Shown piece by piece: positions 12,466-31,535 of a stretch of DNA of 39,331 nt. How positions within the stretch are numbered: position 1 is the first letter of the stretch; each line of letters begins with the position of its first letter. The DNA is from Deltaproteobacteria bacterium (GTDB taxonomy: Bacteria; Desulfobacterota; Syntrophobacteria; Syntrophobacterales; Syntrophobacteraceae): positions 1 to 39,331 of the forward strand of contig JAKAJS010000080.1 in assembly GCA_021813685.1 (NCBI GenBank). The letters are read 5' to 3'. Under the pieces are notes generated by a model. That model saw only the letters and a program-made list of their open reading frames with translations, had not been told where the DNA came from and searched no databases. The translations under genes and the position numbers were made by a program.

Positions 12466-12540
12466 ACCGGGCATCACGCGCGAACGAAAACCGGTGGTCT
12501 CTGAAATCATCGGTTTGTTTTTTCCATGCGGGGGAAACGG

Positions 12541-15500: not shown

Positions 15501-15642
15501 CCCGCTGGACGGCGCGGTCATAGCGGGAACAGCCGCTCTTCCGCTGTTGATAAACGAGGGAACCAAGAGCCCGATCGAAAAAAAACAGTTTGCCAAGTGC
15601 GAGGCAGTTCACCAGGCGGCCGAAGCGACAGAACTCGGCTAG
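12541..15642 (+). CDS. P2-type (Ca2+-ATPase-like) cation-translocating ATPase with N-terminal HMA-like domain
   Basis: Membrane cation pump of 1033 residues. An N-terminal module of about 80 residues (RARFKVEGLYGSKAMQEHL) resembles an HMA fold but lacks the metal-binding CxxC. The P-type core follows: cation-ATPase N-domain, TGES at 294-297, M4 PEGLP at 411-415, phosphorylated D454 in DKTGT, KGSP in the nucleotide domain, and GDGIND with D756/D760. In M5, ATNFSE places N822 and E825 where SERCA has N768 and E771. In M6, NLISD places N850, S853 and D854 where SERCA has N796, T799 and D800. Ca2+ or a similar cation is therefore the best guess. The ATG at 12541 has GGGGGAAACGG upstream; an earlier in-frame ATG (12526) has none. 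The gene is followed 15 bp later by the metK-like gene. Confidence 0.92.
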   Translation: MVRPVHTVLEGRARFKVEGLYGSKAMQEHLEAGLSRHEAILEVSSSTTTGNILIRFNSGNDSNSIAKIIESVLRDYRADTVRGEPAGAEKRTGAQQGEPSFAVAGKSAGVLDRAKSALFGQQHRTQPKEPWHTLPAERALNTLESSGKTGLSSTQAAERLDRYGPNALSRPSARSGWSIFADQFKSLPVALLGVAASISLLTGGLADAVVILGVVAINGAVGFKTESEAEKTINSLKDLVKPTADVLRDGAVATVSADLVVPGDILVLRPGSYVAADARLLEASHLSIDESVLTGESMPAVKTIAPLAHVDIPLADRLNMIYMGTLVTGGQGFAVAVATGGFTEVGKLQALLREASSPATPMEKQLTRLGNQLVFISGLACGLVFAVGLLRGYGFFTMLKTSIALAVAAVPEGLPAVATTTLALGLRKMKKHSVLIRHLNAVETLGCIQTICFDKTGTITQNRMSVVRLFSGMKEVRVANGGFLSGDCAIAPLDSKEITNLIETSVLCNETEIGEEAGRYVLHGSPTEIALINLGLQSGMDVRDLRQSHPLLKVNYRSESRLFMGTLHEFEDRGRRRLLIAMKGSPVEVLAMCGSHIINGEELLLSEEDRFLIERENDRMSADALRVLGVACAVVEKEEQFGTSAGFVWLGLIGMADPVRPGVSGLIREFHRAGIDTVMITGDQSLTAYAVGKELDLACGNQVEILDSTELARMDSGALQAVSERVHVFARVSPAFKLEIVQALQSKGRVIAMTGDGINDGPALKAADIGIAMGEGGTDIAREVADVVLEEDNLETVIVAVRDGRTIYNNIRKALRFLLATNFSEIMVMFVTVAAGLPAPLGAMQLLWINLISDIFPGLALAMEPPEPDVLDRPPRSPEEPIVKRSDFKRLTLEAGTLTSGAMAAYAYGIARYGLGAQAGTITFQSLTMGQLLHSISCRSETHSLFRGERLPPNRYLQMALGGSLVLQLLTVLVPGLRNLLGLTPIGPLDGAVIAGTAALPLLINEGTKSPIEKKQFAKCEAVHQAAEATELG

Positions 15643-16866: not shown

Positions 16867-16895
16867 TTTTCACGAAGTTGTAACCCCCCCGTAAT
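16867..16895 (+). promoter_or_regulatory. Pho-box-like direct repeats upstream of CBS hybrid kinase 1
   Basis: Three heptamers with exact 11-bp period and 4-bp spacers: TTTTCAC (16867), TTGTAAC (16878) and CCGTAAT (16889). The E. coli PhoB half-site is CTGTCAT/CTGTAAC with the same spacing. The start codon lies 80 bp downstream. The -10 element is not obvious. The same arrangement precedes 22061, 24507 and 27182, and (on the minus strand) the porin ending at 29621. Confidence 0.5.
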
Positions 16896-16974
16896 AAAGA
16901 TTTGAGGCTCTCCCTCCGATAGAGGCACTGTACACGAGCATCTATTGGAATTCCTATTGCCGGAGAGCAAAAGA

Positions 16975-19845
16975 ATGCTTACGAACCCCCTTACCGGACA
17001 CATCCTGGATTCAGTGCCCGCTGAACACAGACAGGAAAATATCCTGAGGCTGGCCTCCCGCATGGCGGCTTGTGGAGAGTCGATTCCCATCGGCGCGCTC
17101 GCCGAACCGGCGACCTGTGTGGCGCCTGACATGCCGGTGGAGAAAGTGCGCCAGGTGCTCTGCGGGGAAGAGCCGATCACAGGCCTGGTCGTAACGAGCA
17201 GCGAGCAGCCGGTCGGTCTGGTGATGAGCCTGCACCTGGACAGAATCTTAGGCAGCCGATTCGGCCATGCCCTTTACCATGCCAAGCCGATATCGAAGCT
17301 AATGGATCCCGATCCCCTGATCGTCACATACGGCATGCCCATCGAAGAGGCGGCAGACCGTGTGATGGAGCGTGAAAGAGGCAATATCTTCGATCACATC
17401 ATCGTGATGCGCAACGATCGGCTTCTCGGTGTGGTATCGGTCCCCGGGCTTTTGGAGACTCTTGCCCGTCTCGAATCGGAGCGAAGGTCGGCACTCGCCC
17501 GCCTCACAGAAGATCTTCGCAATTCCCGCGAGATGCTCACAACGGTCATCGAAAGCCTGCCTCACTCCATTTCCTGGAAGGATGCGCATCTACGCTACAT
17601 GGGTTGCAACCGCAATTTTGCGCAGGAAACGGGGTTTTCAACCCCGGTGGAAATTATCGGCAAAGATGACAGCCGGCTTATCTGGCCCGAACAGCAGGCC
17701 GACCTTTTGGCTCAATGGGACCGGCAGGTCATGCAGACCCAAGTTCCCATCCGGCAGATGGTGGAATCGGACAACACCTGCCTGGAAATCCAAAAGATCC
17801 CGATGTTCCATGCCGAGACTTTTCTGGGCATTTTGGATATTCACGAGGATGTCACCGAAAAGGAGCAGGCGGCACGGGCCGTGGCGTCCAACCGTGCGAA
17901 GTCTCAATTTCTGGCACACATGAGCCACGAAATCAGGACCCCGTTAAATGGGGTGCTAGGCATGGCGGAATTGCTCCTGGGAACCCGGCTTGACCAGCGC
18001 CAGCGCCACCTTGCCGAAACGGTTCTCCACTCGGGGGAGTCTCTCCTGCGTGTTCTCAACGATATCCTGGATTTTTCCAAGATCGAGGCGGGCAAACTCG
18101 AGTTGGAATGCATCGCATTCCAACTGCACGATGAAATAGAAGAAATGATGGAGATCATGGCGGGCAACGCCCACAAAAAAGGGCTGGAGTTTATCTGCCG
18201 TATTGAAAGGGAGGTCCCGGATCTTTTGGTGGGAGACCCGGGACGGCTGCGTCAAATTCTCACCAACCTGGTCGGGAATGCAATCAAGTTCACCGAAAGC
18301 GGCGAAGTCCTGGTACGGGCCTTTCTGGTCGAAGAAAGCGGCGAGGCGGCTACCCTGGGATTCGAGGTGAAGGATACGGGCATCGGAATCCCGACTAAAG
18401 AGCAGACGCGAATTTTTGAGTCCTTCTCCCAGTCGGACTGCTCCATGAGCCGGAAGTACGGGGGCACGGGGCTCGGTCTTTCCATCTCCCGGCAGCTCTG
18501 CAGAATGATGGGCGGAGATATCGGCGTCGAAAGCCGCCCCGGCGGAGGAACTACTTTTCGCTTCACGATTCGCATCGATAAGCAAGGTGGTGAAACATCC
18601 GTAGAGGATTCCTGCCGGCTGAAGGAGCCGCAAAACCTTCGGGTACTCATCGTCGATGACAACGAAAACAATCGGGCGGTCCTGCAATACCAGGTCGACT
18701 CCTGGGGAATCGGCAACGAAAGCGCGGAAAACGGCCCGCTGGCGCTGGAAATGCTGCGGAAGGCGCACAGGGAAGGAAGGCCCTTTGACATAGCCATTCT
18801 GGATATGATGATGCCCGGCATGGACGGAATGGAACTTGCCCGGGCGATAAAAGCCGATGCGCGGCTGTGTGAGACGAAGCTTCTCGTCCTCACCTCCATC
18901 GACTATGCAAGCCCTGAAAAAATAAGGCAGGCGGGCATAGACGCCTCCCTGACCAAGCCCGCTCGACGCTCCAAGCTCTATAACTGCCTGCTCGGCCTGA
19001 GCGGCATGATCCCGCCGAACCGGGACATGCCTCCGGGCAAATCCAGGGAAAAAGAGAAACTGACCGGCCGCCTGCTCCTGGCGGAAGACAATCCCATCAA
19101 CCAGGAGGTGACCCGCGGGATGGTTCAAAGACTGGGCTGCGAACTCGATACGGTTGAAAACGGCGAACAGGCTTTGCTGGCTATATCCGAAAGAAGATAC
19201 GATTTAATCCTGATGGATTGCCAAATGCCCGTGATGGACGGCTATACGGCGACCAGACTCATCCGCGAAAAGGAAAAACGGGGCGAGTTGGGCGCCGGGC
19301 ACCTGACGATTGTAGCTCTTACCGCCCATGCCATGTCAGGTATCCAGGAGCAATGCCTGGCCGCGGGTATGGACGACTACCTGGGAAAGCCCTTCACTCT
19401 GGATCAGCTCCATGAAACGCTCGCGCGCCGGCTCGGTACGAAAGCCCCCAGCGTGCCAATTCCACCGCAACCGGCTCCTCCCCCCGTCCAGTTATTGGAC
19501 CCCAACATCCTCAACTCCATTCGGGCACTCCAGTCCGAGGGCATGCCCGATGTCTTCCAAAAGGTGCTCAATATATACATGCAAAAATCACCCGGTCTCA
19601 TGGAAAACCTTCGGCAGGCGATTTCGACCGGCAACGCTTCGGCAGTAGAGTTCGCCGCTCACTCTCTCAAATCGGCAAATGCCAACATGGGGGCACTGGA
19701 ACTGTCCGCCTTGTGCCGCGAATTGGAGCAACTCGGGCGCTCGGGGAGCATCGAGGGCGCCCCGGAAATATTCGCCCGCATGGAGAAGACTTATCCGCTC
19801 GTTTTGGACGCCCTCAAAGCAGAGCTCACCGGAGGGGCCTCTTGA
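16975..19845 (+). CDS. Cytosolic CBS-PAS hybrid histidine kinase with two receivers and an HPt
   Basis: Complete phosphorelay in one chain of 956 residues, without membrane segments. Order: paired CBS-type modules (about 30-160), short coiled coil, PAS (about 190-300; SLPHSISWKD, YMGCNRNF), HisKA with H318 in MSHEIRTP, HATPase (N box [24 protein letters not shown]), receiver 1 with D610 in LDMMMPGMDG, receiver 2 with D748 in MDCQMPVMDG, and HPt with H896 in AAHSLKSAN. CBS pairs often bind adenosyl ligands such as ATP, AMP or SAM; binding here is inferred. The ATG with CCGGAGAG upstream is preferred to an in-frame TTG at 16945. The gene overlaps the GGDEF-EAL gene by 4 bp, so the relay output may feed that protein's receiver. 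A Pho-box-like operator lies upstream. A close paralogue is at 24507. Confidence 0.93.
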   Translation: MLTNPLTGHILDSVPAEHRQENILRLASRMAACGESIPIGALAEPATCVAPDMPVEKVRQVLCGEEPITGLVVTSSEQPVGLVMSLHLDRILGSRFGHALYHAKPISKLMDPDPLIVTYGMPIEEAADRVMERERGNIFDHIIVMRNDRLLGVVSVPGLLETLARLESERRSALARLTEDLRNSREMLTTVIESLPHSISWKDAHLRYMGCNRNFAQETGFSTPVEIIGKDDSRLIWPEQQADLLAQWDRQVMQTQVPIRQMVESDNTCLEIQKIPMFHAETFLGILDIHEDVTEKEQAARAVASNRAKSQFLAHMSHEIRTPLNGVLGMAELLLGTRLDQRQRHLAETVLHSGESLLRVLNDILDFSKIEAGKLELECIAFQLHDEIEEMMEIMAGNAHKKGLEFICRIEREVPDLLVGDPGRLRQILTNLVGNAIKFTESGEVLVRAFLVEESGEAATLGFEVKDTGIGIPTKEQTRIFESFSQSDCSMSRKYGGTGLGLSISRQLCRMMGGDIGVESRPGGGTTFRFTIRIDKQGGETSVEDSCRLKEPQNLRVLIVDDNENNRAVLQYQVDSWGIGNESAENGPLALEMLRKAHREGRPFDIAILDMMMPGMDGMELARAIKADARLCETKLLVLTSIDYASPEKIRQAGIDASLTKPARRSKLYNCLLGLSGMIPPNRDMPPGKSREKEKLTGRLLLAEDNPINQEVTRGMVQRLGCELDTVENGEQALLAISERRYDLILMDCQMPVMDGYTATRLIREKEKRGELGAGHLTIVALTAHAMSGIQEQCLAAGMDDYLGKPFTLDQLHETLARRLGTKAPSVPIPPQPAPPPVQLLDPNILNSIRALQSEGMPDVFQKVLNIYMQKSPGLMENLRQAISTGNASAVEFAAHSLKSANANMGALELSALCRELEQLGRSGSIEGAPEIFARMEKTYPLVLDALKAELTGGAS

Positions 19846-21962
19846 ACCGTGTCGAAACAACGCGCGAGCTGCCGCTCATCCTCATCGCCGACGACGACAT
19901 GATGCTCAGGGTCATGGCCAGGGCGCGGCTGGAAGCATTGGGCTTTTCGGTTGTGGAAGCCGAGGACGGGGCGCAGGCTTTGCAAACGATCCAAAGTGTC
20001 GAACCCGAGCTGTTCGTCCTGGACGTCATGATGCCGGAAAAAGACGGGTTCGAAGTCTGCCGCGGGCTCCGGGCGAACCCGAGGTTTGCGCATGCGCCCA
20101 TCCTCATGGTCACGGGACTCGAAGATGCAGACTCGATCAACAGGGCCTACGAAACCGGAGCAACCGACTTTATAACCAAACCGATCAACTGGGTCATTTT
20201 CGGTCATCGCGTTCGCTACATGTGGCGCGCCGCAATGGTCGGCGAGGAGTTACGGAGAAGCGAGAATAAAAACAAAACACTGGTAAACGCGATCCCCGAT
20301 CTCATGTTCCACCTGCAAAAAGACGGCGCCATTCAGGAGTATAAACTGCCGAAGGCCCTGCAAACCTCATGGGCGAACGGCGAATTGTACGGGAAGAATA
20401 TCGACGAGGCCTTTCCATCGAATTCGCGGCAAATTTCGATAAGTGTAGCCAGAGCGCTCGAAACCGGGGAAATGCAGGTTTGTGAGCACCAGGAAAAGTC
20501 GGGACGCGCCACAACCTATTACGAATCCCGTATTGTCGCCGGGCAGGACGAGGGCGCCGTAGTCATCGTTCGCGATATCACGGAGAAGAAAAATGCCGAG
20601 GAGCAAATACTCCATCTTGCCTATAACGACACGCTGACTGGTCTTCTCAACCGCAATTCGCTCAGGGAGCATCTGAACCGGGCGCTTTCCGAAGCCAAAC
20701 GATGCGGAAGCTGCGTCGCCGTGATCCTTTTCGATCTTGATCGGTTCAAAAGGATCAACGACACCTTCGGCCACAACACCGGGGACCAACTCCTGGAAGC
20801 CGTCGCAGACCGGCTTCTAAGGTGTGTGCGCAAGGGAGACCTGGTCGCTCGCTCCAACCCGCACGGCTCGGCAATATCGGTTGGCCGCCTTGGCGGCGAT
20901 GAGTTCCTGACGCTTTTGCCCGAGATCGAAAAAACCGGGGACGCCGGAAAAGTTGCCCGAAGAATACTCGACTCCATTTCTCACCCATTTTTCATCGCGG
21001 GCAGAGAAATCTTCATAACCGCAAGCATTGGCATCAGCGTGTATCCCCATGACGGAGATGATGCGGAGACGCTGCTGAAAAACGCAGATGCCGCAATGTA
21101 TCATGCCAAAGATCAGGGGAAAAACAACGTCCAGTTTTATAGTAGAGAGATCGATCCGGCGGCCCGTGAGAGCCTCGCGCTCGAAAACGAAATGCGAAAG
21201 GCCATGGAGCGCGGGGAATTCACGGTGTACTATCAGCCCCAGGTCGATCTGAGGAGCGGGAAGATCGTGGGTTGCGAGGCTCTCCTGCGGTGGCCGCACC
21301 CGGAAATGGGATTTATATCTCCCCAGCAGTTCATTCCGCTCGCAGAAGAAACCGGTCTCATTGTGCCTCTGGGCAAATGGGTCCTGTTCCAGGCGTGCAG
21401 GCAGGCCAAAGCGTGGAATTCGGCCCTGCCCTCCGGCCTTCGAGTGAGTGTAAACCTTTCCAGCTATCAGTTCAGACAAAAAGATCTCATCGATGTCATT
21501 GGAGAAAGTCTCGAAACCTCCGGACTCCAACCCGCCCACCTCGAGCTGGAAATAACCGAAAGCGCCATAATGCAGGATACCGAAGGGGCCGTTCTCATGC
21601 TCAAAGCCTTACGGCAGATGCAAATTCGGATCGCAATCGACGATTTCGGGACCGGATACTCTTCTTTGAGCTATCTTAAAAGATTTCCGCTAAACGTCCT
21701 CAAAATCGATCAATCTTTCATCCGTGACATTACGAAAAACAGGCAGGACGCCTCCATAACCACAGCGATCATCGCGCTGGCCCAAAGTCTTGGCCTGGAA
21801 GTAATCGCCGAAGGAGTCGAAACACGGGAGCATCTGCAGTTTCTGAGCGACAAGGGGTGCAACCTGATGCAGGGCTATTTTTTCAGCCGGCCGGTTCCCG
21901 CCGATGAGTTTCAAAGACTTCTCCAAGAACACAGCAGTAAGGAATTATTCGTAAAGAAATGA
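19842..21962 (+). CDS. REC-PAS-GGDEF-EAL response regulator (c-di-GMP turnover)
   Basis: Response regulator of 706 residues that can make and/or degrade cyclic-di-GMP. The receiver has DDD at the N-terminus and phosphoacceptor D61 in LDVMMP; a weak PAS follows. The GGDEF domain has an intact GGDEF at 351-355, but the RxxD inhibitory-site candidate RKGD (330-333) is pushed away from it by about 11 extra residues (SNPHGSAISVG). The EAL domain has EALLRW at 479-484, NLSSYQF, ELEITES, DDFGTG, KIDQSF and EGVE, so phosphodiesterase activity is expected. The start is a TTG at 19842 that overlaps the kinase's TGA (TTGA), with GGAGG at 19831; no better start exists in frame. Coupling suggests the kinase at 16975 phosphorylates this receiver. 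Confidence 0.92.
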   Translation: MNRVETTRELPLILIADDDMMLRVMARARLEALGFSVVEAEDGAQALQTIQSVEPELFVLDVMMPEKDGFEVCRGLRANPRFAHAPILMVTGLEDADSINRAYETGATDFITKPINWVIFGHRVRYMWRAAMVGEELRRSENKNKTLVNAIPDLMFHLQKDGAIQEYKLPKALQTSWANGELYGKNIDEAFPSNSRQISISVARALETGEMQVCEHQEKSGRATTYYESRIVAGQDEGAVVIVRDITEKKNAEEQILHLAYNDTLTGLLNRNSLREHLNRALSEAKRCGSCVAVILFDLDRFKRINDTFGHNTGDQLLEAVADRLLRCVRKGDLVARSNPHGSAISVGRLGGDEFLTLLPEIEKTGDAGKVARRILDSISHPFFIAGREIFITASIGISVYPHDGDDAETLLKNADAAMYHAKDQGKNNVQFYSREIDPAARESLALENEMRKAMERGEFTVYYQPQVDLRSGKIVGCEALLRWPHPEMGFISPQQFIPLAEETGLIVPLGKWVLFQACRQAKAWNSALPSGLRVSVNLSSYQFRQKDLIDVIGESLETSGLQPAHLELEITESAIMQDTEGAVLMLKALRQMQIRIAIDDFGTGYSSLSYLKRFPLNVLKIDQSFIRDITKNRQDASITTAIIALAQSLGLEVIAEGVETREHLQFLSDKGCNLMQGYFFSRPVPADEFQRLLQEHSSKELFVKK

Positions 21963-21964
21963 AA

Positions 21965-21993
21965 CAGCTACTTTCCTGACATACGGATGTAAC
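21965..21993 (+). promoter_or_regulatory. Pho-box-like direct repeats upstream of the DksA-type gene
   Basis: CTGACAT (21976) and ATGTAAC (21987) are spaced 11 bp apart; a weaker third unit CAGCTAC lies at 21965. Ten bp after the last unit is CATGCT (22004-22009), a 3/6 match to a -10 box, which is the spacing seen in PhoB-dependent promoters. The start codon is 68 bp after the repeats. Confidence 0.45.
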
Positions 21994-22060
21994 AAGAGTT
22001 GGGCATGCTGGGAAAAGCAGATGCGCACCACAAATCTTCCAAAGCAGGAAAGGACTGGAG

Positions 22061-22426
22061 ATGGACGAACATACTTTGAAAGATTTCAGGAAAATGTTGG
22101 AAAAAAACATGAGAGGACTTCTTGAGGGCGGCCAGGCACCCTACGCGAAGCTTAAAGATCACGGTCCCAACGACCCCATGGATGTGGCGGATATGGCCTC
22201 TCATCAATGCGATCAGGTTCTGGGCCACACGATTCATTACCGCAATCACAAGCTTGTGCAGGAAATCAGGTCCGCCCTACAGCGCATTGACGACGGAGAA
22301 TTCGGGGTCTGCTCCCTTTGCTCCGATTCCATAGGGCTTGGTCGGCTGCAGGCCCGCCCCACCGCCATGCTTTGCATACGCTGCCAGGAGGCGATGGAAA
22401 GCATTCAGCGCAGGTTCGCAGCTTAG
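22061..22426 (+). CDS. DksA/TraR-family zinc-finger transcription factor
   Basis: A 121-residue protein of the DksA type, which binds in the RNA polymerase secondary channel and modulates initiation, often with ppGpp. The coiled-coil tip motif DxxDxA is intact (D41, D44, A46 in MDVADMAS). The C-terminal zinc finger has all four cysteines: C84/C87 (CSLC) and C105/C108 (CIRC). It is shorter than E. coli DksA (151 residues), mainly at the N-terminus. AAGGA lies about 11 nt before the ATG. The gene stands between the GGDEF-EAL gene and a convergent MntP-like gene, behind its own Pho-box-like operator. Confidence 0.9.
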   Translation: MDEHTLKDFRKMLEKNMRGLLEGGQAPYAKLKDHGPNDPMDVADMASHQCDQVLGHTIHYRNHKLVQEIRSALQRIDDGEFGVCSLCSDSIGLGRLQARPTAMLCIRCQEAMESIQRRFAA

Positions 22427-22461
22427 CTTAGGGTCATAAGGAGTATACAGCTGATTTATTT

Positions 22462-22550
22462 GCAAAATCCCCCTAAATCCCCCTTTTTCAAAGGGGGACT
22501 TGGATTCGCATCACCCGATGCGTTCCAGGGTTTCCGGCTGGACACTGGTT
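22462..22550 (+). repeat. Interspersed hairpin repeat, family 1 (copy A)
   Basis: Starts GCAAAATCCCCC, contains a perfect 8-bp stem with 3-nt loop (CCCCCTTT, TTC, AAAGGGGG), then ACTTGG, TCACCCGATGCGTT, CAGGGTTTCCGG and GGACACTGGTT. Nearly identical copies lie at 33931-34010 and 37157-37246; a diverged inverted copy lies at 11049-11127. It sits exactly between the convergent DksA-type and MntP-like genes, where it can act as a two-way terminator. Confidence 0.8.
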
Positions 22551-22566
22551 TTGCCTCATACGCCGG

Positions 22567-23220
22567 TCAGAGAAGCTCGAAGATGCCGATGCAAATCAGG
22601 AGCAGACCCGCGGCAAGCCCTGAATACCTCCCGAAGACCCGGTTCCCGTAGCGGCCGCCGATCATTAAGCCCGCAACGATGGTCGCGATGCTGAAAAGGA
22701 ACACGGAGACCGCAAGCCATACTATGTTCAGGCCAATCAATCCGGCCCCGACCCCGTTGGCGATATTGTTCAGGGTCAGGGCCAACCCAAGTACCGACCC
22801 CTCTTTCAGATCGATATGGCTGGAATGATCCGTATCCGCACTGCACGGGTTGTTTAGAATCGCCAGGACCCTTCGGAAAAAAGACCGGGGCGCTGCACTC
22901 ATCACCGCCGCATTCTCGCTTGCGTGCAAGACTTGAGACGCCGACGCCACAGAATCGTAGACCGCAACCCACACCCCTGCGCCTATCAATATCGCCGATC
23001 CGAGGTGATTTGCAGTCTCAGGCTTTAAAAACAGAAACAGGCTTCTGCCGAAAGCGGTCGAAAGAAAGGTCCCCAGTGTCGTAATCGCGGCAATCAGCAG
23101 ATTCGAACCGAGAGGAATCGATATCCCTCTTGCACCATAGGCTATCCCGATTCCAACATTATCGAGATTGCAGGATATGGCCATAAGGAGAATCAGAGAA
23201 GATTCCGCTTCTTTCACCAT
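22567..23220 (-). CDS. MntP/YtaF-family membrane transporter (putative Mn2+ efflux)
   Basis: A 217-residue membrane protein with about six hydrophobic segments and two related halves. The half-signatures are MAISCNLDNVGIGIAYGARG near residue 14 and LALTLNNIANGVGAGLIGLN near residue 140; acidic and Asn residues in such helices bind the metal in MntP. The SCNLDN version is closer to YtaF, the sporulation-annotated branch, than to E. coli MntP, so the cation is uncertain. The start at 23220 has AAGGGA upstream; a longer frame to 23268 lacks one. The gene is convergent with the DksA-type gene. Confidence 0.85.
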   Translation of the reverse strand: MVKEAESSLILLMAISCNLDNVGIGIAYGARGISIPLGSNLLIAAITTLGTFLSTAFGRSLFLFLKPETANHLGSAILIGAGVWVAVYDSVASASQVLHASENAAVMSAAPRSFFRRVLAILNNPCSADTDHSSHIDLKEGSVLGLALTLNNIANGVGAGLIGLNIVWLAVSVFLFSIATIVAGLMIGGRYGNRVFGRYSGLAAGLLLICIGIFELL

Positions 23221-23277
23221 TGATGCGTCCCTTGCTTCTTGCGAACAACGGGGGAAAATTCCCCGCACCTCACCCGA

Positions 23278-23340
23278 AGAGCCGCGTAGCGGCGAGGGGG
23301 GGCAGGGGGCGATAGCCCCCGCTCTTTTATGCTTCGAACG
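23278..23340 (+). repeat. Interspersed hairpin repeat, family 2 (copy E1)
   Basis: Two hairpins in a row: GCCGC-GTA-GCGGC and GGGGGC-GATA-GCCCCC, followed by GCTCTTTT. The second is a textbook terminator shape on the plus strand, although both neighbouring genes are on the minus strand. A near-identical copy is at 31766-31829. Confidence 0.75.
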
Positions 23341-23403
23341 GTGCTCAGCCCTTCTAACATAAAGTCTTCGGCTGCTTTGTCACGTTCTTAATTCATTACA
23401 TCC

Positions 23404-23958
23404 CTACACAACCGATTCAGTAGCGGGGAGTTCTACGGCTGGGGTGGAATAGAGGCGGATAGCTTCTTCGCCGATCAGGCCGACGGCTGCTGCCGCGGTT
23501 ATTCCCCCGACAGGCAAAGGCAGGAGGGCGTGAAGGTCGAGGGCTCCGGAAAGGAGTGAAACACCTGCAGCCAGGCCGGTGGCGGCGACAACGGCAACCA
23601 TTTCCGGAACGCGCGCCTCGTCGTCTATATCCTTTCCGTACAGGAGGGCTATTTCGAGGATGAGATAGAGATGCATGCGGCTAAGAACGGAAGTTCCCCC
23701 GACAACACCCAGGAACTCGAATGCGTAGCCAAGCCCCGGGACCAGGCTCGGCAGGTGCATGAGAGCGCCGCCGAGAAAGGAAAGGGACGTCTGGGCCGAG
23801 ATGAGCCTTCGCGCTTTTTGCTCCGCGCTCTCCTGCGGGTAGCGGCCATTCACCGCCTCCACCACCTTTCGCACCCGGTCTTTGCGAAGGCGGAGGAAAA
23901 AGTAGAAGAACTGGTCGGCGAGAATGGACTGCCGGGAGGCAGCGTCCCGGGCATGCAT
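23404..23958 (-). CDS. EcsC-like hypothetical membrane-associated protein
   Basis: A 184-residue protein. After a charged helical N-terminus (FLRLRKDRVRKVVEAVNGRY), several hydrophobic or amphipathic stretches follow: LSFLGGALMHLPSLVPGLGY, YLILEIALLYGKDIDDEA, VVAATGLAAGVSLL and a Gly/Ala-rich tail. The LYGKDIDD phrase and the Gly-rich segments recall the EcsC family, but the match is by eye and weak. The role is unknown. It starts 4 bp after the DUF5132 gene, whose last codons supply the GAGG ribosome-binding site, so the two are co-translated. Confidence 0.6.
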   Translation of the reverse strand: MHARDAASRQSILADQFFYFFLRLRKDRVRKVVEAVNGRYPQESAEQKARRLISAQTSLSFLGGALMHLPSLVPGLGYAFEFLGVVGGTSVLSRMHLYLILEIALLYGKDIDDEARVPEMVAVVAATGLAAGVSLLSGALDLHALLPLPVGGITAAAAVGLIGEEAIRLYSTPAVELPATESVV

Positions 23959-23962
23959 GGAG

Positions 23963-24238
23963 CTAGGCCTCTTCGGGTTGGGGGCCGGGGTGGGCTCCCT
24001 GCCCTTCGGCTATCAGTTCGGCCTTCACTTCCGCCGTGATGTCTTCGAGCGATTCCATGGCCTCCGAGAGGAGTTCCCTCCCCTTTTGCGCGGCAAGCAA
24101 CCCGGTCTTTACCGTTGCTTTGATCAAAGGCCTCATGACATTTCCTGCGGCGGGAAGAATCACCGGGGCAAGAAGAATCGCCCCGATCCCGATGATAATC
24201 GGGGAACTGATTTTCAATCCGTTGTCAAAAAGCGCCAT
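23963..24238 (-). CDS. DUF5132-like small membrane protein
   Basis: A 91-residue protein with one hydrophobic segment near the N-terminus (PIIIGIGAILLAPVILPAAG, about residues 13-32), a basic stretch (RPLIKATVKTGLLAAQKGRE) and an acidic C-terminal helix (EAMESLEDITAEVKAE). This order matches the DUF5132 family, whose members often occur near HMA_2 proteins and P-type ATPases. An HMA_2 protein (27182) and an ATPase (12541) are in this window, but not adjacent. AGGAG precedes the ATG. It leads a two-gene operon with the EcsC-like gene. Confidence 0.7.
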   Translation of the reverse strand: MALFDNGLKISSPIIIGIGAILLAPVILPAAGNVMRPLIKATVKTGLLAAQKGRELLSEAMESLEDITAEVKAELIAEGQGAHPGPQPEEA

Positions 24239-24393
24239 CTTCTTTTTCTCCTGGTGTGTAACGATACCTGCAAGGCTTACAAGTAGGAGGTCGCAGGGCG
24301 CGTGTCAATAAGAGTTTCGCAATTTTTCATTCCATTGCCTACAAAAAGTGTCGCAGAACGGGAAGATGTTATTACCTGGCGGCGGGAGGCCGA

Positions 24394-24422
24394 AAGTCAC
24401 GGGAACGTAACCCGGGTGCAAT
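24394..24422 (+). promoter_or_regulatory. Pho-box-like direct repeats upstream of CBS hybrid kinase 2
   Basis: AAGTCAC (24394), ACGTAAC (24405) and GTGCAAT (24416) at exact 11-bp period with 4-bp spacers. The first two match the Pho half-site core (GTCA, GTAAC). The start codon is 84 bp downstream, close to the 79-bp gap seen for the paralogous kinase at 16975. Confidence 0.45.
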
Positions 24423-24506
24423 CAAGAAGCGACGGATTCTTGCGATTATCTACGCTGCGCTTTGCCCATTCGTGGGTGATTATTGGACATACGGCTGGAG
24501 AAGCTC

Positions 24507-27053
24507 ATGAGATCCGCATTCGCCGAAAGCACGGAACTTGATTTCGGAAGAAACAAACCTTTGGTTTTCAAGGCGCCGGAAAAGATCCAAAGGATGGTAT
24601 CGAAGGGACGCCCGATCGATATGGAAACGCTGCTCGAACCTGCGGTATGCATCGGGCCGGAGGCCACGGTTCGGGATGCCATCGAGAGGCTCCGGGGTGA
24701 CGAACCCATAAACGCGCTTGTAGTAGCTGAGGGAGAGAGGCCCCTTGGCCTGGTGAGCAGTCTCCACCTGGAGAGAATGCTCAGCAGGCAGTATGGAGTG
24801 GCCCTTTTCTACGGAAAACCGATTCCGACGATCATGGACGACAACCCGCTAATCGTCGATGCCGGCGTGTCCCTGGAGGTTGGCGCCCGCCTCGCAATGC
24901 AGCGCGAAAGCTCCCGGGTATTCGATCACGTCATCGTCACCAGGGAGGGACTGGTGATCGGCGTGGCGGCCGTTCCCAAGATGCTCGAAACCCTGGCCTC
25001 GCTTGAGCAGAGGCGGCGCGAAGAATTGACCAGGCTTACCCTCAGGCTGGAGGAGGAAATCGGCGATCGGCAAAAGGCTGCGGAAGCGCTTCAACGGTCG
25101 CGCGAAATGCTTAAGAGAGTGATCGAAAGCCTTCCGCATTCGCTTTTCTGGAAAAACCCGGACATGCTCTACCGGGGCTGCAATCGAAACTTCGCCGTGG
25201 AAGCGGGAGCTCGAGCCGCTTCCGAGATCGTCGGCAAAACCGACGAGCAGTTGAGGTGGAACGATGAGGAGGCTCGCCTTTTCCGCGAATGTGACGAAGA
25301 GGCGATGAGGACCCTTTCGCCCGTCGTACGGACCGTCAAACGGGGCACCGAAAATCTATTCTTCGAAATCAGGCGAATCCCCATGTGCGATTCCAGGGGC
25401 AATCTTATCGGCATTCTGGGAACGCACCTGGAGGTTACCGAAAAGATGACGGCGGCCAGGGCCGTTGCGGAAAATCGCGCAAAATCCGAATTTCTGGCCA
25501 ATATGAGCCACGAGATCCGAACCCCCATGAATGGCGTGCTCGGTATGGCCGAACTGCTTTTGGGCACCGACCTGGACGCAAAGCAGCGCAAGCTCGCCGA
25601 AACCGTTTTCCGCTCCGGCGAATCCCTGCTGAGGATATTGAACGATATCCTTGATTTTTCCAAGATCGAAGCAGGCAGGCTGGAGATCGAGCATATCGAT
25701 TTCGATCTGCGCGATCACGTCGGCAAACTCACCGAACTGTTTGCCGTAAATGCGCAGGCAAAGGGGCTCGAATTTACCTGCGAGATGGGAAACGATGTAC
25801 CTGCCGATGTTAACGGAGATCCCGGCCGACTGAGCCAGGTGCTGGGCAACTTGGTCGGAAACGCGGTGAAATTCACGGACCGGGGGGAAATTCGCGTGCG
25901 AATATCCCTTCGAAGCCAAACCCGGGAGGAGGTGCTTGTCGCCTTCGAGGTACGCGATACGGGCATCGGAATCTCGCGCGAGGCACGGGCAAGGATCTTC
26001 GAACCTTTCGTGCAGCCCGATCTTGGAGTGAGCGGAAGGTTTGGCGGCACCGGTCTCGGGCTTTCCATATCCAGACAGCTTTGCGAAATGATGGGGGGTA
26101 GCATCGAAGTAGAAAGCATCCCCGGGAAAGGGAGCACTTTCCTGTTTACGGTCAGCCTTACAAAACAGCGCCCTCAAAAAAACGCTGGAGCATGGACCGC
26201 TCCCGATCCGGATTGCCTGCGTGTCCTGGTCGTAGACGATAATCTCACGAATCGGGACCTTTTTCAGGCTATGCTCGATTCTTGGAAAATAAGGAACGAA
26301 GCGGCGGAAAGCGGAGAAAAGGCACTGGAAATTCTGCGCGATGCGGCCAAATGTGAAATGCCCTTTCAGGCCGCCGTACTCGACAGGTGGATGGACGGCA
26401 TGGATGGGGTAGAGCTTGCGAAAAAAATTAAGCAGGATCCTTCGCTCGCATCAATGGCCCTGATAATGGTGAGCGGGGACATCGCGGCATCCTCCCCCAC
26501 TGGTGTTTCGGCCTGCCTCTTAAAACCTGTGAGCCCCGCCCGGCTCTATGCTGCGCTTATGGATTCGGTGCGGGAATGCCGCCTCGAAAAGAGCTCGTTT
26601 TGCGCCGTCCCGCCTTCTACCCAACCCTTCTTTACGCCTGTTCTGCTCGCCGAAGACAATCTCACCAACCAGGGAGTGTGCTCGGAAATGCTCGAAAAGC
26701 TGGGCTGCAGGAAACTCGACATCGTCTCAAACGGCAGGGAGGCCCTCGAAGCCCTTCTACGCGCAAACTACGGCCTCGTTTTTATGGACTGCCGGATGCC
26801 GGAAATGGACGGTTACGATGCGGCAAAAAGGCTCAGGCAAATCGAGATCGAAACGAGAGCCGCTTCCCGAACACCAATAGTGGCCCTTACCGCTCACGCC
26901 CTGAAAGGGACGCGTGAAAAATGCCTCGCCGCCGGCATGGACGACTATATTTCAAAACCTTTCACAATGGCGCAAATCAAGGCAGCCCTGGACCGATGGC
27001 TCTGTCGGAAAGAAGCGGGAAGCGAGGAAGCAGGAAGAGAGCAGCGCGCCTGA
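24507..27053 (+). CDS. Cytosolic CBS-PAS hybrid histidine kinase with two receivers, no HPt
   Basis: Paralogue of the kinase at 16975, 848 residues. Order: paired CBS-type modules (about 40-165), coiled coil, PAS ([18 protein letters not shown]), HisKA with H335 in MSHEIRTP, HATPase ([24 protein letters not shown]), receiver 1 with D626 in [10 protein letters not shown] (the usual Pro after Met is replaced), and receiver 2 with D761 in [10 protein letters not shown]. Unlike its sister it stops after receiver 2, so an external HPt is needed to pass the phosphate on. The C-terminal tail is encoded by a GGGAAGC-type simple repeat (27011-27040). The ATG at 24507 has GGAGAAG upstream; an in-frame TTG lies at 24483. 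Its own Pho-box-like operator lies upstream. Confidence 0.92.
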
Positions 27054-27077
27054 AGCTTTTCAGTGAAGGACTACAAA

Positions 27078-27122
27078 CTGTAAGGTTTCCGTAACCTCTT
27101 CGTAACGTATGAACTCTATTAT
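27078..27122 (+). promoter_or_regulatory. Pho-box-like promoter of the HMA_2 gene
   Basis: The clearest operator of the set. CTGTAAG (27078), CCGTAAC (27089) and TCGTAAC (27100) repeat every 11 bp with 4-bp spacers. Exactly 10 bp after the last unit is TATTAT (27117-27122), a good -10 box, so the repeats take the place of the -35 as in PhoB-activated promoters. The start codon is 59 bp downstream of the -10. Confidence 0.6.
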
Positions 27123-27181: not shown

Positions 27182-27547
27182 ATGAGCTGCTATTGTCATA
27201 TCACGCCGGGAAGACTCAGGATTAAAACGCCGATTATCAGGCAGAACGCAGGCGAATCCGAGAGAGTGCGCGAATTGCTCCGCGCCCTTCCCGGGGTGCA
27301 AACCGTCTCCGTAAATGGTGTGACGGGAAGCGTTACGGTCCACCACGACGGCTCGGCGGCCGATTCCGAATCGATTCTGAGTGTTTTGAAAGAGAACGGG
27401 TATTACAGGACATCGCAAGAGCCCGATCATTCCATGGAATCCATAACCTCCAGGATTGGCGCGACCTTGGGAAGGGTACTCCTCGGGGCTGTCGTGGAAA
27501 AGGCCTTCGAGGGGTCGCTGCTCTCGTTTCTGGCATTCCTTGTTTGA
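27182..27547 (+). CDS. HMA_2-type heavy-metal-associated-fold protein
   Basis: A 121-residue protein. Residues 4-75 form a ferredoxin-like HMA fold of the HMA_2 kind: a basic, His/Cys-containing first strand (CYCHITPGRLRIKTP) instead of a CxxC loop, a helix (SERVRELLRALPGVQTVSV) and the NGVTGSVTVHHDG hairpin. The C-terminal 40 residues are Gly-rich and hydrophobic (IGATLGRVLLGAVVEKAFEG), suggesting membrane contact. Such proteins often accompany P-type ATPases with a related N-terminal domain and DUF5132 proteins; both occur in this window. GGAGGG lies upstream of the ATG. The gene has its own Pho-box-like promoter and is followed by an IS transposase on the other strand. Confidence 0.8.
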   Translation: MSCYCHITPGRLRIKTPIIRQNAGESERVRELLRALPGVQTVSVNGVTGSVTVHHDGSAADSESILSVLKENGYYRTSQEPDHSMESITSRIGATLGRVLLGAVVEKAFEGSLLSFLAFLV

Positions 27548-27594: not shown

Positions 27595-28314
27595 TCAATG
27601 CGGCAAAATTGAAATGTCGTATTTTGGCAGTACCGGATTGCGATCCAACCGAGCCTCAACCTCTTTCATTGCTTTTCTGGTAAGAGAAACCCCCTTGCGA
27701 TAAACCTTTTTACTCAGTTCAATGATTGGATGGAGCCCCTTCCATGTCATCGTCCCGGCCCATGCGAGCATGGTTTCGGCACTCGTCAGCCTGGCCCCGT
27801 TCCAATGGCATTCCAGCATTCCCCAGCACCTCTCGATGGGATTGTACTTGCTGTGATAGGGTGGATAATAGATCAACTGGACGGCTATGCCGACGGAGTC
27901 GACGAATTCCACCATCCGTTTCAGAAATTGGGTGCGCGCGCCGCCGCTCTCCGGACCGTTGTCGGCTTTGATTCGGATGAGTTCTGTTTGTTCCCGTTCC
28001 CCGGGAGGGAGCCCCGTCCACCACGCATGGAGCGAATCGACTATAAAATCGCTGGTTTTGCGGGAACTGCCGAAGGTTATCTTCAATTGCCCGGTGTCCT
28101 CGTCCACGATTCCGAAGGGAACATATTTTTCCTTACATCCCATGTCGTGGTCGCAGGCCTTGTTGTCGCCCCGGGTCTTTCCTCCCCTCGAGTAGTCGCC
28201 GATATTGACCGTGGCCTTGCAGTCCATGCTCACTCGCTTGACGTTGACGGACGCAGATTCGATCAGTTGCTCCGCTTTCTTGATGTTTTCGAAGATGGCG
28301 TCGGTTTCGGGAAT
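27595..28314 (-). CDS. ISAzo13-type transposase, C-terminal catalytic frame (orfB, reached by -1 frameshift)
   Basis: The -1 frame continues from the A8 run as IPETDAIFENIKKAEQLIE, then VKRVSMDCKATVNIGDYSRG. The catalytic triad is visible: Asp in VSMDCKA, Asp in IKADNGPES and Glu in NPIERCWG, as in the DDE family of ISAzo13. The first internal ATG is at 28233, too late to include the residues before the first catalytic Asp, which supports frameshift expression over separate initiation. No internal stop is present, so the transposase may be functional. Confidence 0.8.
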   Translation of the reverse strand: MPETDAIFENIKKAEQLIESASVNVKRVSMDCKATVNIGDYSRGGKTRGDNKACDHDMGCKEKYVPFGIVDEDTGQLKITFGSSRKTSDFIVDSLHAWWTGLPPGEREQTELIRIKADNGPESGGARTQFLKRMVEFVDSVGIAVQLIYYPPYHSKYNPIERCWGMLECHWNGARLTSAETMLAWAGTMTWKGLHPIIELSKKVYRKGVSLTRKAMKEVEARLDRNPVLPKYDISILPH

Positions 28315-28889
28315 TTTTTTTGAGGCTTAGCCTTGACCACCTTTCGAAGGCGGTATCCCATGCGGTTCAGTATGAGCGACATGCAACTCGGACATGGCAA
28401 CTGTTCTTCCTCGAACCCTTGCGCGCGCAATTGCTTCAAAGCCTCGGCGGCCGTCAGTCGCGTATAGGCCATTGTGGAATGGAAGGTGGGATCTTGCTGC
28501 GCGTGGGACTCGGCCAGCTTTCGCAACACTTCGGCCGCTTCGGGTTGCTTTTCCTCCCACCGTTTGTTTCCGGAAAAAGCCGACCTCGCCCCCAGACATA
28601 GGATGCCTGTGCGCTTTTCTCCCAAACCCTTCTCCACGCTTTCCCTTTTCCAACCGAAGATGGTTTCAGCCAGACGGGCGCTGCCGCCGCAGTACTTGAG
28701 CGCTATCTCAGCCTGAAACGATCTGCGATCCACTTCACGCATTTTTGCAGCCGCCAGGCGAAGGTCTTCGACCTGTGAGCCAGTGGGCCTGTCGCCTGTT
28801 GTGTGGATAGATGATATCGATTCGACACATTCGCGTTCCTTCTCGGTCAAGTCGCTCGAAAAGGGGTTTCGTATGCTTATGTCATTCAT
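28263..28889 (-). CDS. ISAzo13-type transposase, N-terminal frame (orfA)
   Basis: A 208-residue frame with GGAG upstream of its ATG. It carries the N-terminal DNA-binding part of the transposase (helix-turn-helix-like SARLAETIFGWKRESVEKGL) and the typical segment RLTAAEALKQLRAQGF, then SLILNRMGYRLRKVVKAKPQ. It runs across a run of eight A's (28321-28314 on the minus strand) and ends 51 bp later in a short unrelated tail. A -1 slip at the A8 run joins it to the catalytic frame and restores the phrase KKIPETDAIFENI, so the full-length enzyme is probably made by frameshifting. Confidence 0.8.
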   Translation of the reverse strand: MNDISIRNPFSSDLTEKERECVESISSIHTTGDRPTGSQVEDLRLAAAKMREVDRRSFQAEIALKYCGGSARLAETIFGWKRESVEKGLGEKRTGILCLGARSAFSGNKRWEEKQPEAAEVLRKLAESHAQQDPTFHSTMAYTRLTAAEALKQLRAQGFEEEQLPCPSCMSLILNRMGYRLRKVVKAKPQKKFPKPTPSSKTSRKRSN

Positions 28890-29620: not shown

Positions 29621-31123
29621 TTACCAGGCGACCTGGAACCTGGAATCGAAGATGTTGGCATCTCCGTTACTGACGAATTTCCCGGTAGCGCCATAATCGG
29701 GGCCGTCTACGTGCGCATGGGTGTAGTCGAACAGTATCCGGACGTTCGGATTCAGATACCAGACAAGGCCGCCGGTCCAATCCTGTTCCTGTCCGCCCTG
29801 TCCTCCCGTGGTTACGGTGAGAGGCATGGCGTTGTCGATAAAGTTTGCAGAGTCATACCGCAGGGCCAGTTCCAACGCGCCCCAGGTCCCGGCGGCGGGA
29901 TCGAAATTGCAGTTGAGCTTTGGCCTGCCGAAAGTCCCGGACCCCATGTCGTAGTTGCGATGTTCCCCGGTGAGAAAATAGCTCGCCATGACATAGTAGC
30001 CGTCGAAGGTCGGGCTGCTGAACGTTCCGTTTCTGTCGTTGACGTTGTTTACGAAGGCGGTGAAGTATTCGCCCTGCACCGAAAAGGGGCCGTATACGAA
30101 GGCCACTTCCGGGTTTATGATATCGGCGCCCTGTCCATACAGACTTCCGGTATTGAGCGTATTCGGACCGAGATGCCAGTCCGGATGGCTTTCCCACTGC
30201 ATGGGCCAAGAGGAGGTCGAGTCGGAACGGAAGAGATGACGGTAGCCGAAGCCCAGGTGCAGCAATTCGCAGCCTCCGTCTGCATACCAGGGAAGGTAGG
30301 TGAGCCTGCCGGCAATGTTTACGTCGTTGTAGCCGTTATTGTTGAATGCGTTTCCCGAGGCGTTCTGCTGCTGCATGTACCCGCCGACTGCCCAGGTCAT
30401 GTGCTTGTCGAGTTCGGTATTGAAGAGCATCGCGCCCGTGTCGTAATCGTGGCCCTGCTGCGTGACGAAGGCGTTTGCGACACTGCGTTCGGTGAAGTCA
30501 TACCAGTTGTCACTGGTGAGTTCTTCCAGGGAGAAAGGCTCTTTCATGTGGCCGACCCGGATATTCGCCCAGCAGGGCATCCCTACGTACTGCAGCCACA
30601 GATCGGTGATGTTAACTGTGCCGCCGGCGAAATCGAACTCGGCCATGTAGTCCCAGTCCCTGTAGACCTGTCCCTGGATCGTGATCCGCGCACGCCTGAC
30701 CTCGTCGCCGTAGCCGTCAAAACCAGTGGGAAACGCCTCCTTCATCCGGTCGTTTATCGTGGCGCCGCCAAAATCCACCTGCAAACGGCCGCCCACATGC
30801 ATCGAGAAATTGCCGTCATTGCTCTTGAGATGGAGTTCGCCGTTTTTAAACTCGGCCTGGGCCGCCAGGGGGTGCTTCTCTTTATATTCTTTGGCTTCTG
30901 CGGCTGTCTGCGCCTTCACTTGTTTGGCAACCGCAGCCTTCTGCTTGCTCTTTTCCTGCTGCGCCTGCTGCAGAAGCTGTTCGTACTGCTCCGGGGTGAT
31001 CTGGTGATTTTGTTTCAGGATAATCAAAAGTTTTTCCGCCAGGGTCTGGTCCTGCGCAACCGCCATAACCGACCAGGATACGGAAAATAGAAGCGCCAGC
31101 ATGATTAAAAGATATTTTCGCAT
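29621..31123 (-). CDS. Phosphate-selective porin O/P family protein (porin 1)
   Basis: Outer-membrane beta-barrel of 500 residues. Signal peptide (MRKYLLIMLALLFSVSWSVMA), then a periplasmic Q/K/E-rich coiled-coil segment that begins QTLAEKLLIILKQNHQIT and is shared by all three porins, then the porin O/P barrel: FSMHVGGRLQVDFGG, ANIRVGHMKEPFSLEELTS, NPEVAFVYGPFSVQGEY and DWTGGLVWYLNPNVRILFDY. The chain ends QVAW; a C-terminal aromatic is the assembly signal for outer-membrane proteins. OprP/OprO channels take up phosphate and polyphosphate, but the phosphate-binding arginine ladder cannot be confirmed here. The ATG at 31123 has GAGGAGG upstream; an in-frame GTG at 31150 does not. A double Pho-box-like site lies about 240 bp upstream. 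Confidence 0.9.
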   Translation of the reverse strand: MRKYLLIMLALLFSVSWSVMAVAQDQTLAEKLLIILKQNHQITPEQYEQLLQQAQQEKSKQKAAVAKQVKAQTAAEAKEYKEKHPLAAQAEFKNGELHLKSNDGNFSMHVGGRLQVDFGGATINDRMKEAFPTGFDGYGDEVRRARITIQGQVYRDWDYMAEFDFAGGTVNITDLWLQYVGMPCWANIRVGHMKEPFSLEELTSDNWYDFTERSVANAFVTQQGHDYDTGAMLFNTELDKHMTWAVGGYMQQQNASGNAFNNNGYNDVNIAGRLTYLPWYADGGCELLHLGFGYRHLFRSDSTSSWPMQWESHPDWHLGPNTLNTGSLYGQGADIINPEVAFVYGPFSVQGEYFTAFVNNVNDRNGTFSSPTFDGYYVMASYFLTGEHRNYDMGSGTFGRPKLNCNFDPAAGTWGALELALRYDSANFIDNAMPLTVTTGGQGGQEQDWTGGLVWYLNPNVRILFDYTHAHVDGPDYGATGKFVSNGDANIFDSRFQVAW

Positions 31124-31535
31124 TACTTTTGTTTCCTCCTCAGTATTCACGTTATTTTCATCTTTTCACGTTACCGCAGCCCCCTGGTTTTTAGCCCCTC
31201 CATCACCTCCTTTTTCATCCCTGCCTCCCGCCCCCGCAAAATGCGGACAGCGTGAATTCGCCCTAAACTCCGTTCCTCTCGGCGCCTCCGCGTGAGAACC
31301 AATTTCACAGAATGGGTAAAATTGATGAGAGGATTGGTGCTGCGTAGAATGACCCGAAAATGTTACGTGGCTATGACGAATTGTTACATATACATGACGA
31401 ACGCGTGGATATTCGATGACCGCCTGCGGAAGCGGGGCTCGATTTTAGTTCCCTTTACACCACGATATCGGATGGTTAAAAAAAATCAGGGAATGATTCG
31501 CTTTATGCGCTCAAATATCTGAACGGGGGAACACA
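31124..31535. other. Intergenic region between porin 1 and the Cys-rich gene
   Basis: A divergent control region of 412 bp. It holds the 21-bp tandem repeat with Pho-box-like half-sites (31362-31400). Near the porin it has two TAACGTGAA units (minus strand, 19 bp apart, at about 31148-31175). A plus-strand frame of 76 codons (31292-31522) runs over the repeats and is not credible as a gene. Confidence 0.5.
31362..31400 (-). promoter_or_regulatory. Double Pho-box-like site in a 21-bp tandem repeat
   Basis: On the minus strand: TCGTCAT (31400-31394), 4 bp, ATGTAAC (31389-31383), 3 bp, TCGTCAT (31379-31373), 4 bp, ACGTAAC (31368-31362). Each 7-4-7 pair matches the Pho-box layout, and the pairs repeat every 21 bp. 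Ten bp further is CATTCT (31351-31346), a 3/6 -10 box, so the site points to porin 1. The leader would be about 215 bp. The plus-strand Cys-rich gene at 31536 could also be controlled from here. Confidence 0.5.

Follow-up and report, generated by a model that had tools for sequence, protein, structure and literature searches.

Contig C18, the 39331-base stretch analysed here and called the window throughout, belongs to a draft genome (5.06 Mb in 285 contigs) that most likely comes from an uncultured member of the Syntrophobacteraceae related to Syntrophobacter, and carries four Pho-box-like arrays, candidate binding sites for the phosphate regulator PhoB, ahead of a set of signalling genes (Table 1). 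These genes encode two hybrid histidine kinases (KIN1 and KIN2), a DksA-like zinc-finger protein and a small HMA_2-domain protein. An earlier note on this DNA had described the arrays as 7-base-pair (bp) units with an 11-bp period, the last array being followed after 10 bp by a TATTAT hexamer; direct reading finds all four arrays, and the hexamer as well. Arrays of the same type stand before the phoB and pst genes of the same genome, and they recur at orthologs of the window genes. Because the switches of the phosphate-uptake genes also precede the signalling genes, phosphate starvation probably switches the signalling set on.

The signalling genes and their upstream arrays

Table 1. Features of the window, with coordinates, strand and the evidence for each.
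Feature	Position	Strand	Evidence
Array before KIN1, three 7-bp units	16867..16895	+	TTTTCAC-gaag-TTGTAAC-cccc-CCGTAAT; matrix 16.8
KIN1, CBS-PAS-HisKA-HATPase-REC-REC-Hpt hybrid histidine kinase	16975..19845	+	Pfam on 16945-19845; SHEIRTP motif
REC-PAS-GGDEF-EAL protein	19842..21962	+	Pfam, NCBIfam; GGDEF and EALLRW motifs
Array before DksA-like gene, weak first unit	21965..21993	+	CAGCTAC-tttc-CTGACAT-acgg-ATGTAAC
CATGCT -10-like box	22004-22009	+	10 bp past last unit of DksA-like array
DksA-like C4 zinc-finger protein	22061..22426	+	Pfam PF01258 and PF21157; DPMDVA motif
Array before KIN2	24394..24422	+	AAGTCAC-ggga-ACGTAAC-ccgg-GTGCAAT; matrix 15.1
KIN2, CBS-PAS-HisKA-HATPase-REC-REC hybrid histidine kinase	24507..27053	+	Pfam on 24483-27053
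Array before HMA_2 gene	27078..27106	+	CTGTAAG-gttt-CCGTAAC-ctct-TCGTAAC; matrix 23.3
TATTAT -10-like box	27117..27122	+	10 bp past HMA_2 array; same or variant in orthologs
HMA_2-domain small protein	27182..27547	+	Pfam PF19991, 39.9 bits
Porin A, O/P type	29621..31150	-	Pfam PF07396, 166.4 bits
Pho-box-like unit group before porin A	31351..31422	-	Two exact GTCAY-N6-GTAAC pairs; matrix only 6.5 and 4.1
Chemotaxis cluster, metK, three O/P-type porins, PrmA-type methyltransferase, two small genes			Window gene content
RadA-like gene			Reading of Pfam matches
YtaF/MntP-type transporter gene	near DksA-like gene		NCBIfam

The two kinases are 49% identical (blastp), and KIN2 has no Hpt match in Pfam. 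Pfam places a single CBS copy in KIN1 and another, at a different position, in KIN2, so that a CBS pair is presumed in both; such pairs often bind adenine nucleotides. A possible TTG start of the gene downstream of KIN1 overlaps the KIN1 stop codon, so the two genes probably form one operon, to which the REC-PAS-GGDEF-EAL protein, carrying both its GGDEF and its EAL motif, would belong. The earlier note had listed the kinases, the DksA-like factor and the HMA_2 protein behind the arrays, and these stand, while the GGDEF-EAL gene joined to KIN1 was missing from its list. In the DksA-like protein the C4 zinc finger is present, with CSLC...CIRC read in the sequence together with the DPMDVA motif, an acidic DxxDxA coiled-coil tip motif being typical of DksA. 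The name "DksA-like" is used because the protein scores 88.8 bits with the curated DksA model TIGR02420, under the cut-off of 115.5. A kinship of the HMA_2 protein with the N-terminus of the calcium-type P-type ATPase encoded in the window (12526-15642) was rejected, the similarity being no better than chance (blastp E = 0.20). This ATPase N-terminus shows a weak HMA_2 match of 27.8 bits, under the cut-off of 30.

The strength of the arrays was gauged with a 7-bp matrix built from 16 sites in phoB and pst promoters within the genus, zero of them from the window, and applied as three units at 11-bp spacing to both window strands. The HMA_2 (23.3), KIN1 (16.8) and KIN2 (15.1) arrays rank first to third in the window. 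In a 3-Mb Markov null, with expected numbers obtained by multiplying P values by 78,662, such scores are expected 0.0, 0.03 and 0.03 times per window, respectively, the figures for KIN1 and KIN2 resting on one simulated hit. When the spacing was varied from 8 to 15 bp, three scores of at least 15 appeared at 11 bp alone, and the best score at any other spacing was 13.2 (15 bp). Direct 7-bp repeats with an 11-bp period are thus found in the window arrays, weakly at the DksA-like site, which scores 5.7 and ranks eighth.

A PhoB array normally substitutes for the -35 box and lies about 10 bp upstream of the -10 box. The distance from array to -10-like box is 10-11 bp at the HMA_2 gene, the DksA-like gene, one pst operon (pstS) and phoB; at KIN1 and KIN2 the -10-like box lies 23-24 bp past the third unit.

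Arrays at phoB, pst and orthologous genes

The protein of this genome that matches PhoB best is encoded at C125:41578-42243 and scores 260 bits with TIGR02154, its best NCBIfam model. It is followed by a PhoR-like kinase gene whose best models are PnpS and PhoR, both under cut-off. Upstream of phoB lies ACGTAAC-4-CCGTCAC-4-ACGTAAC, with TAGAAT 11 bp on, and on contig C196 two divergent pst operons each have an array before them, so that the sites that the earlier note expected before pho and pst genes are found in the same genome, at phoB-phoR and at both pst operons. More widely, 24 phoB homologs were scanned (23 of 27 genomes had one) over 410 bp around the start, with consensus weights set by hand from the Escherichia coli box and the Desulfovibrio vulgaris box. 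An array scoring at least 20 is found upstream of 21 of the 24, the genome's own included, and 20 reach 20.8, the 99% level for random stretches of 410 bp. Among PstS homologs 13 of 24 have an array, three of them (L107, L109 and L115) read by eye because the loci end early, and among the remainder is a second PstS clade, which lacks them.

In the six OmpR-type regulator genes examined, an array precedes phoB alone; the other five, drawn from eight further near-full-length OmpR-type matches, show none in the scanned stretch, where the top score is 12.0. The PhoB recognition helix ends in RTVDTHIRRLR, a sequence that the 10 orthologs compared share apart from I/V changes, and the corresponding ends of the five other regulators are unlike it.

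Across the 5.06 Mb, the two-unit pattern GTCAY-N6-GTAAC has seven matches, of which one lies at phoB, two at pst, one at KIN2, two at porin A and one elsewhere. The last, on C232, was set aside as it sits over the stop codon of an unrelated open reading frame (ORF) of 378 aa. Six of the seven matches thus lie at phoB, pst or in the window. Two of the three promoters outside the pho genes fall inside 0.78% of the genome, a chance of 1.8e-4 that is after the fact, since sites of this kind were the reason for choosing the window. Behind the 15 matches to GTAACN6GTNAY, genes were identified in four cases (KIN1, HMA_2, phoB and a chemotaxis receptor), and six have no same-strand ORF of more than 80 aa starting within 400 bp. 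The stricter GTNAYN6GTAACN6GTNAY has no match in the genome, and none of the arrays compared with it fits it strictly. The chemotaxis receptor gene of the own genome has CCGTAAC-4-CCGTAAT about 78 bp upstream (L034:3952-3991, minus strand), with a matrix score of 9.0. The best array of the real-DNA background set, scoring 19.6, lies at L031:4071 on C118 of the own genome.

In six relatives, where matches were assigned to genes by hand, the 34 matches to GTCAY-N6-GTAAC comprise four at phoB, eight at pst, one at a porin, one at KIN2 and 20 elsewhere. The 92 matches to GTAAC-N6-GTMAY comprise phoB (5), pst (2), HMA_2 (4), KIN2 (3), KIN1 (1), a KIN1 remnant (1), a zinc-ribbon gene (3) and 73 elsewhere or not assigned.

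Recurrence at orthologs was followed from gene to gene, the genomes G001, G003, G006 and G007 being same-genus relatives of the window's genome. With the CBS-PAS part of the KIN1/KIN2-type kinases as query, 12 loci were found in named genomes; eight, at 45% identity or more, come from five Syntrophobacteraceae, two Deltaproteobacteria and one Desulfovibrio sp., and the other four (31-38%) include cyanobacteria and Geomesophilobacter. Counting the window in each case, the array is present at two of two KIN1 orthologs (the matrix scores best one unit further on in L079), at five of seven KIN2 orthologs (L075, L076, L077 and L078 being positive, L075 best one unit earlier), and at all four DksA-like orthologs, taken from those relatives that have the gene in their KIN2 loci (L077, L078 and L080; scores 3.6 to 10.6), with a CATnCT box 10 bp past the array in every one. 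Close HMA_2 orthologs (at least 60% identity) occur in six of 10 genus relatives searched, and with the window counted the array is present at seven of seven; a typical one reads CTGTACG-gttt-CTGTAAC-4-CCGTAAT, and a TATTAT-like box follows it after 10 bp. The array of L132 was initially read by eye, and that of L134 scores best in a register moved by 11 bp. A KIN1 remnant downstream of metK in G001 (L076:5661-5974) still has a Pho-box-like array upstream.

A candidate PhoB regulon and its alternatives

Taken together, these sequences make it likely that the PhoB regulon of this organism also takes in the CBS-PAS hybrid kinases KIN1 and KIN2, the GGDEF-EAL enzyme from the probable KIN1 operon, and the genes for the DksA-like factor and the HMA_2 protein. 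The proposal of a single phosphate-starvation regulon that includes CBS hybrid kinases and a DksA factor thus holds in so far as the arrays are shared with phoB and pst and recur at orthologs; it falls short at the DksA-like site, which taken alone is at chance level.

Several observations weigh against this extension. The two-unit patterns are not enriched: reversed controls give 4 matches for the 7 to GTCAY-N6-GTAAC and 39 for the 15 to GTAACN6GTNAY in the own genome, and 56 for the 34 and 127 for the 92 in the six relatives; because the reversed control gives 4, placement and not count is the evidence. In real DNA of the own genome (278,194 positions) the HMA_2 score is expected 0 times per window, those of KIN1 and KIN2 about 0.28 and 0.57 times, and that of the DksA-like array 5.1 times, a harsh control because its loci were fetched for half-sites or lie beside regulator or ABC-transporter genes. 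With 5.1 such scores expected there, or 1.6 in the Markov null, the DksA-like array is not significant alone, and its support comes from conservation upstream of three orthologs. Four of 20 control promoters of other genes score above 0.03, the 95% level for random stretches of 300 bp: that of PrmA in the window, at 4.6 close to the 5.7 of the DksA-like array, that of orf184 in L080 (1.1), and those of DUF5132 in L077 (0.9) and L078 (3.0), the last two lying in the intergenic region of KIN2 and showing the KIN2 array in reverse. The KIN2 array is weak in L080 (-1.5) and out of register in L081; a convincing array was not found at four HMA_2 homologs outside the genus or at a second one in G003, the upstream region of the homolog in L140 reaching 19.6 in the consensus scan; and porins B and C have no array upstream. 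The PhoB score lies below the TIGR02154 cut-off of 296, and the draft genome carries 6.08% contamination in its 285 contigs. The best array of the real-DNA background set, scoring 19.6, lies at L031:4071 on C118 of the own genome.

Were the arrays chance resemblances in intergenic DNA, one would expect what is seen at the DksA-like site taken alone, in the occurrence of two-unit patterns elsewhere with three of the pattern counts no higher than reversed controls, and in the four control promoters above the random level; but the top three matrix ranks, the dependence on an 11-bp period and the recurrence of arrays at orthologs, a -10-like box lying at a comparable distance, make such an origin very improbable. 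A different regulator of the OmpR family, responding for example to metals or envelope stress, might instead control the HMA_2, DksA-like and kinase genes, the likeness to the Pho box then being a family likeness. Direct repeats are common to OmpR-family sites, the first unit of the HMA_2 arrays differs slightly (CTGTACG in several relatives), the DksA-like arrays carry a CCGACAT-type unit, one of the gene products is HMA_2-like, and a YtaF/MntP-type transporter gene is close by. Yet a matrix made from phoB and pst sites alone puts three of the four window arrays on top, and the five OmpR-type matches examined, out of eight besides PhoB, have no array in the part scanned and recognition-helix ends unlike that of PhoB, so that a second regulator appears quite unlikely.

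Binding by PhoB need not mean activation, and at some window promoters it might repress or have no effect. One study reports many E. coli PhoB sites that are transcriptionally inert and intragenic (PMC10294691), and at KIN1 and KIN2 the array is 23-24 bp, not 10, away from the -10-like box; the sites described here, by contrast, lie between genes, and their -10-like boxes are seen again in orthologs, and repression or inertness is accordingly rated as unlikely, if a little less so than a second regulator.

In the model of PhoB activation proposed from these sequences, in which PhoB binding, the direction of activation, the CBS ligand, phosphotransfer and physiological output are inferred, the arrays would be operators for the genome's own PhoB. 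Low phosphate would lead PhoR to phosphorylate PhoB, which would bind the direct repeats that replace the -35 box and recruit RNA polymerase to a -10 box some 10 bp further on; at KIN1 and KIN2 the 23-24 bp gap may be occupied by a weak fourth unit. A first tier would raise phosphate uptake through the two pst operons and one O/P porin, and a second would raise the two CBS-PAS hybrid kinases, the REC-PAS-GGDEF-EAL enzyme, the DksA-like factor and the HMA_2 protein. KIN1, and possibly KIN2, would sense a cytoplasmic ligand through the CBS region and set cyclic-di-GMP via the GGDEF-EAL protein, and the DksA-like factor would retune RNA polymerase. Since adenine-nucleotide binding is common in CBS pairs, a check on energy state may be suggested: in a tentative and rather speculative extension, PhoB would command a second-tier phosphorelay in which the two CBS kinases, made on phosphate starvation, sense the adenine-nucleotide state and set cyclic-di-GMP. 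A dedicated DksA-like factor would meanwhile adjust transcription, and the phosphate signal would be checked against the energy state before a change of lifestyle.

The type of switch is well known. In D. vulgaris, DAP-chip (DNA-affinity-purified-chip) analysis of PhoB (DVU1083) gives a box of (c/t)GT(n)AC repeats with a 4-bp spacer, and pst genes are among the targets, as are genes for HD/EAL cyclic-di-GMP phosphodiesterases (PMC3333781); box type and layout are alike here, and so is the pairing of pst with cyclic-di-GMP genes among the predicted targets. The text passages of that account, whose full table comprises 30 targets, differ in that they mention neither a CBS hybrid kinase nor a DksA-like factor, and neither an HMA_2 protein nor an O/P porin. 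In Pseudomonas fluorescens Pf0-1, phosphorylated PhoB binds a Pho box before the cyclic-di-GMP phosphodiesterase gene rapA in the PhoB-RapA-LapD system (PMC3032545). There too a Pho box lies ahead of a cyclic-di-GMP enzyme gene and low phosphate alters cyclic-di-GMP, but the RapA phosphodiesterase is induced directly, whereas here a REC-PAS-GGDEF-EAL protein lies behind a CBS hybrid kinase. Because PhoB acts on cyclic-di-GMP genes in both organisms, phosphate control of cyclic-di-GMP is already known; likewise a link of dksA to the Pho state has been seen, since a Citrobacter rodentium study has dksA 1.7-fold up in a pstCA mutant (PMC3511308).

The gene set behind the switch looks unusual. No description of CBS hybrid kinases, a DksA-like factor or an HMA_2 protein as Pho members was found among the titles and abstract openings listed by searches of one open-licence library on the Pho regulon, DksA and CBS kinases, in keeping with the earlier note, which knew of no description of the combination. 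The predicted Pho regulon of uncultured Syntrophobacteraceae would thereby reach beyond phosphate uptake and include conserved signalling genes. These few genes, all open to experiment, may connect a lack of phosphate with cyclic-di-GMP and with the control of RNA polymerase in these anaerobes.

Porins and other neighbouring features

The OprP and OprO porins of Pseudomonas are Pho-regulated, and the O/P-type porin A of the window likewise lies behind a Pho-box-like array; in contrast to the Pseudomonas case, two of the three porins in the window cluster have none, so that the claim of a site upstream of the O/P porins applies to porin A and fails for the other two. At the relatives' porin loci an array was found in one of eight scanned (L188, before a porin fragment, score 10.0), with L190 outside the scan.

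The YtaF/MntP-type gene is closer to YtaF (155 bits vs a cut-off of 149.6) and has no array in the 300 bp upstream. Beside orf184 in three relatives, a gene for a small zinc-ribbon protein has its own Pho-box-like array (L077:11597-12102, L078:11374-11885 and L080:7515-7944). The protein of L077 is of the IS1/IS1595 type (NCBIfam), those of L078 and L080 being alike by eye; the gene is absent from the window, and the copy in L080 shares part of its length with the YtaF/MntP-type gene. An ORF on the minus strand of the window (28263-28889), which lies between the HMA_2 gene and the porin cluster, partially matches an ISAZ013-type transposase.

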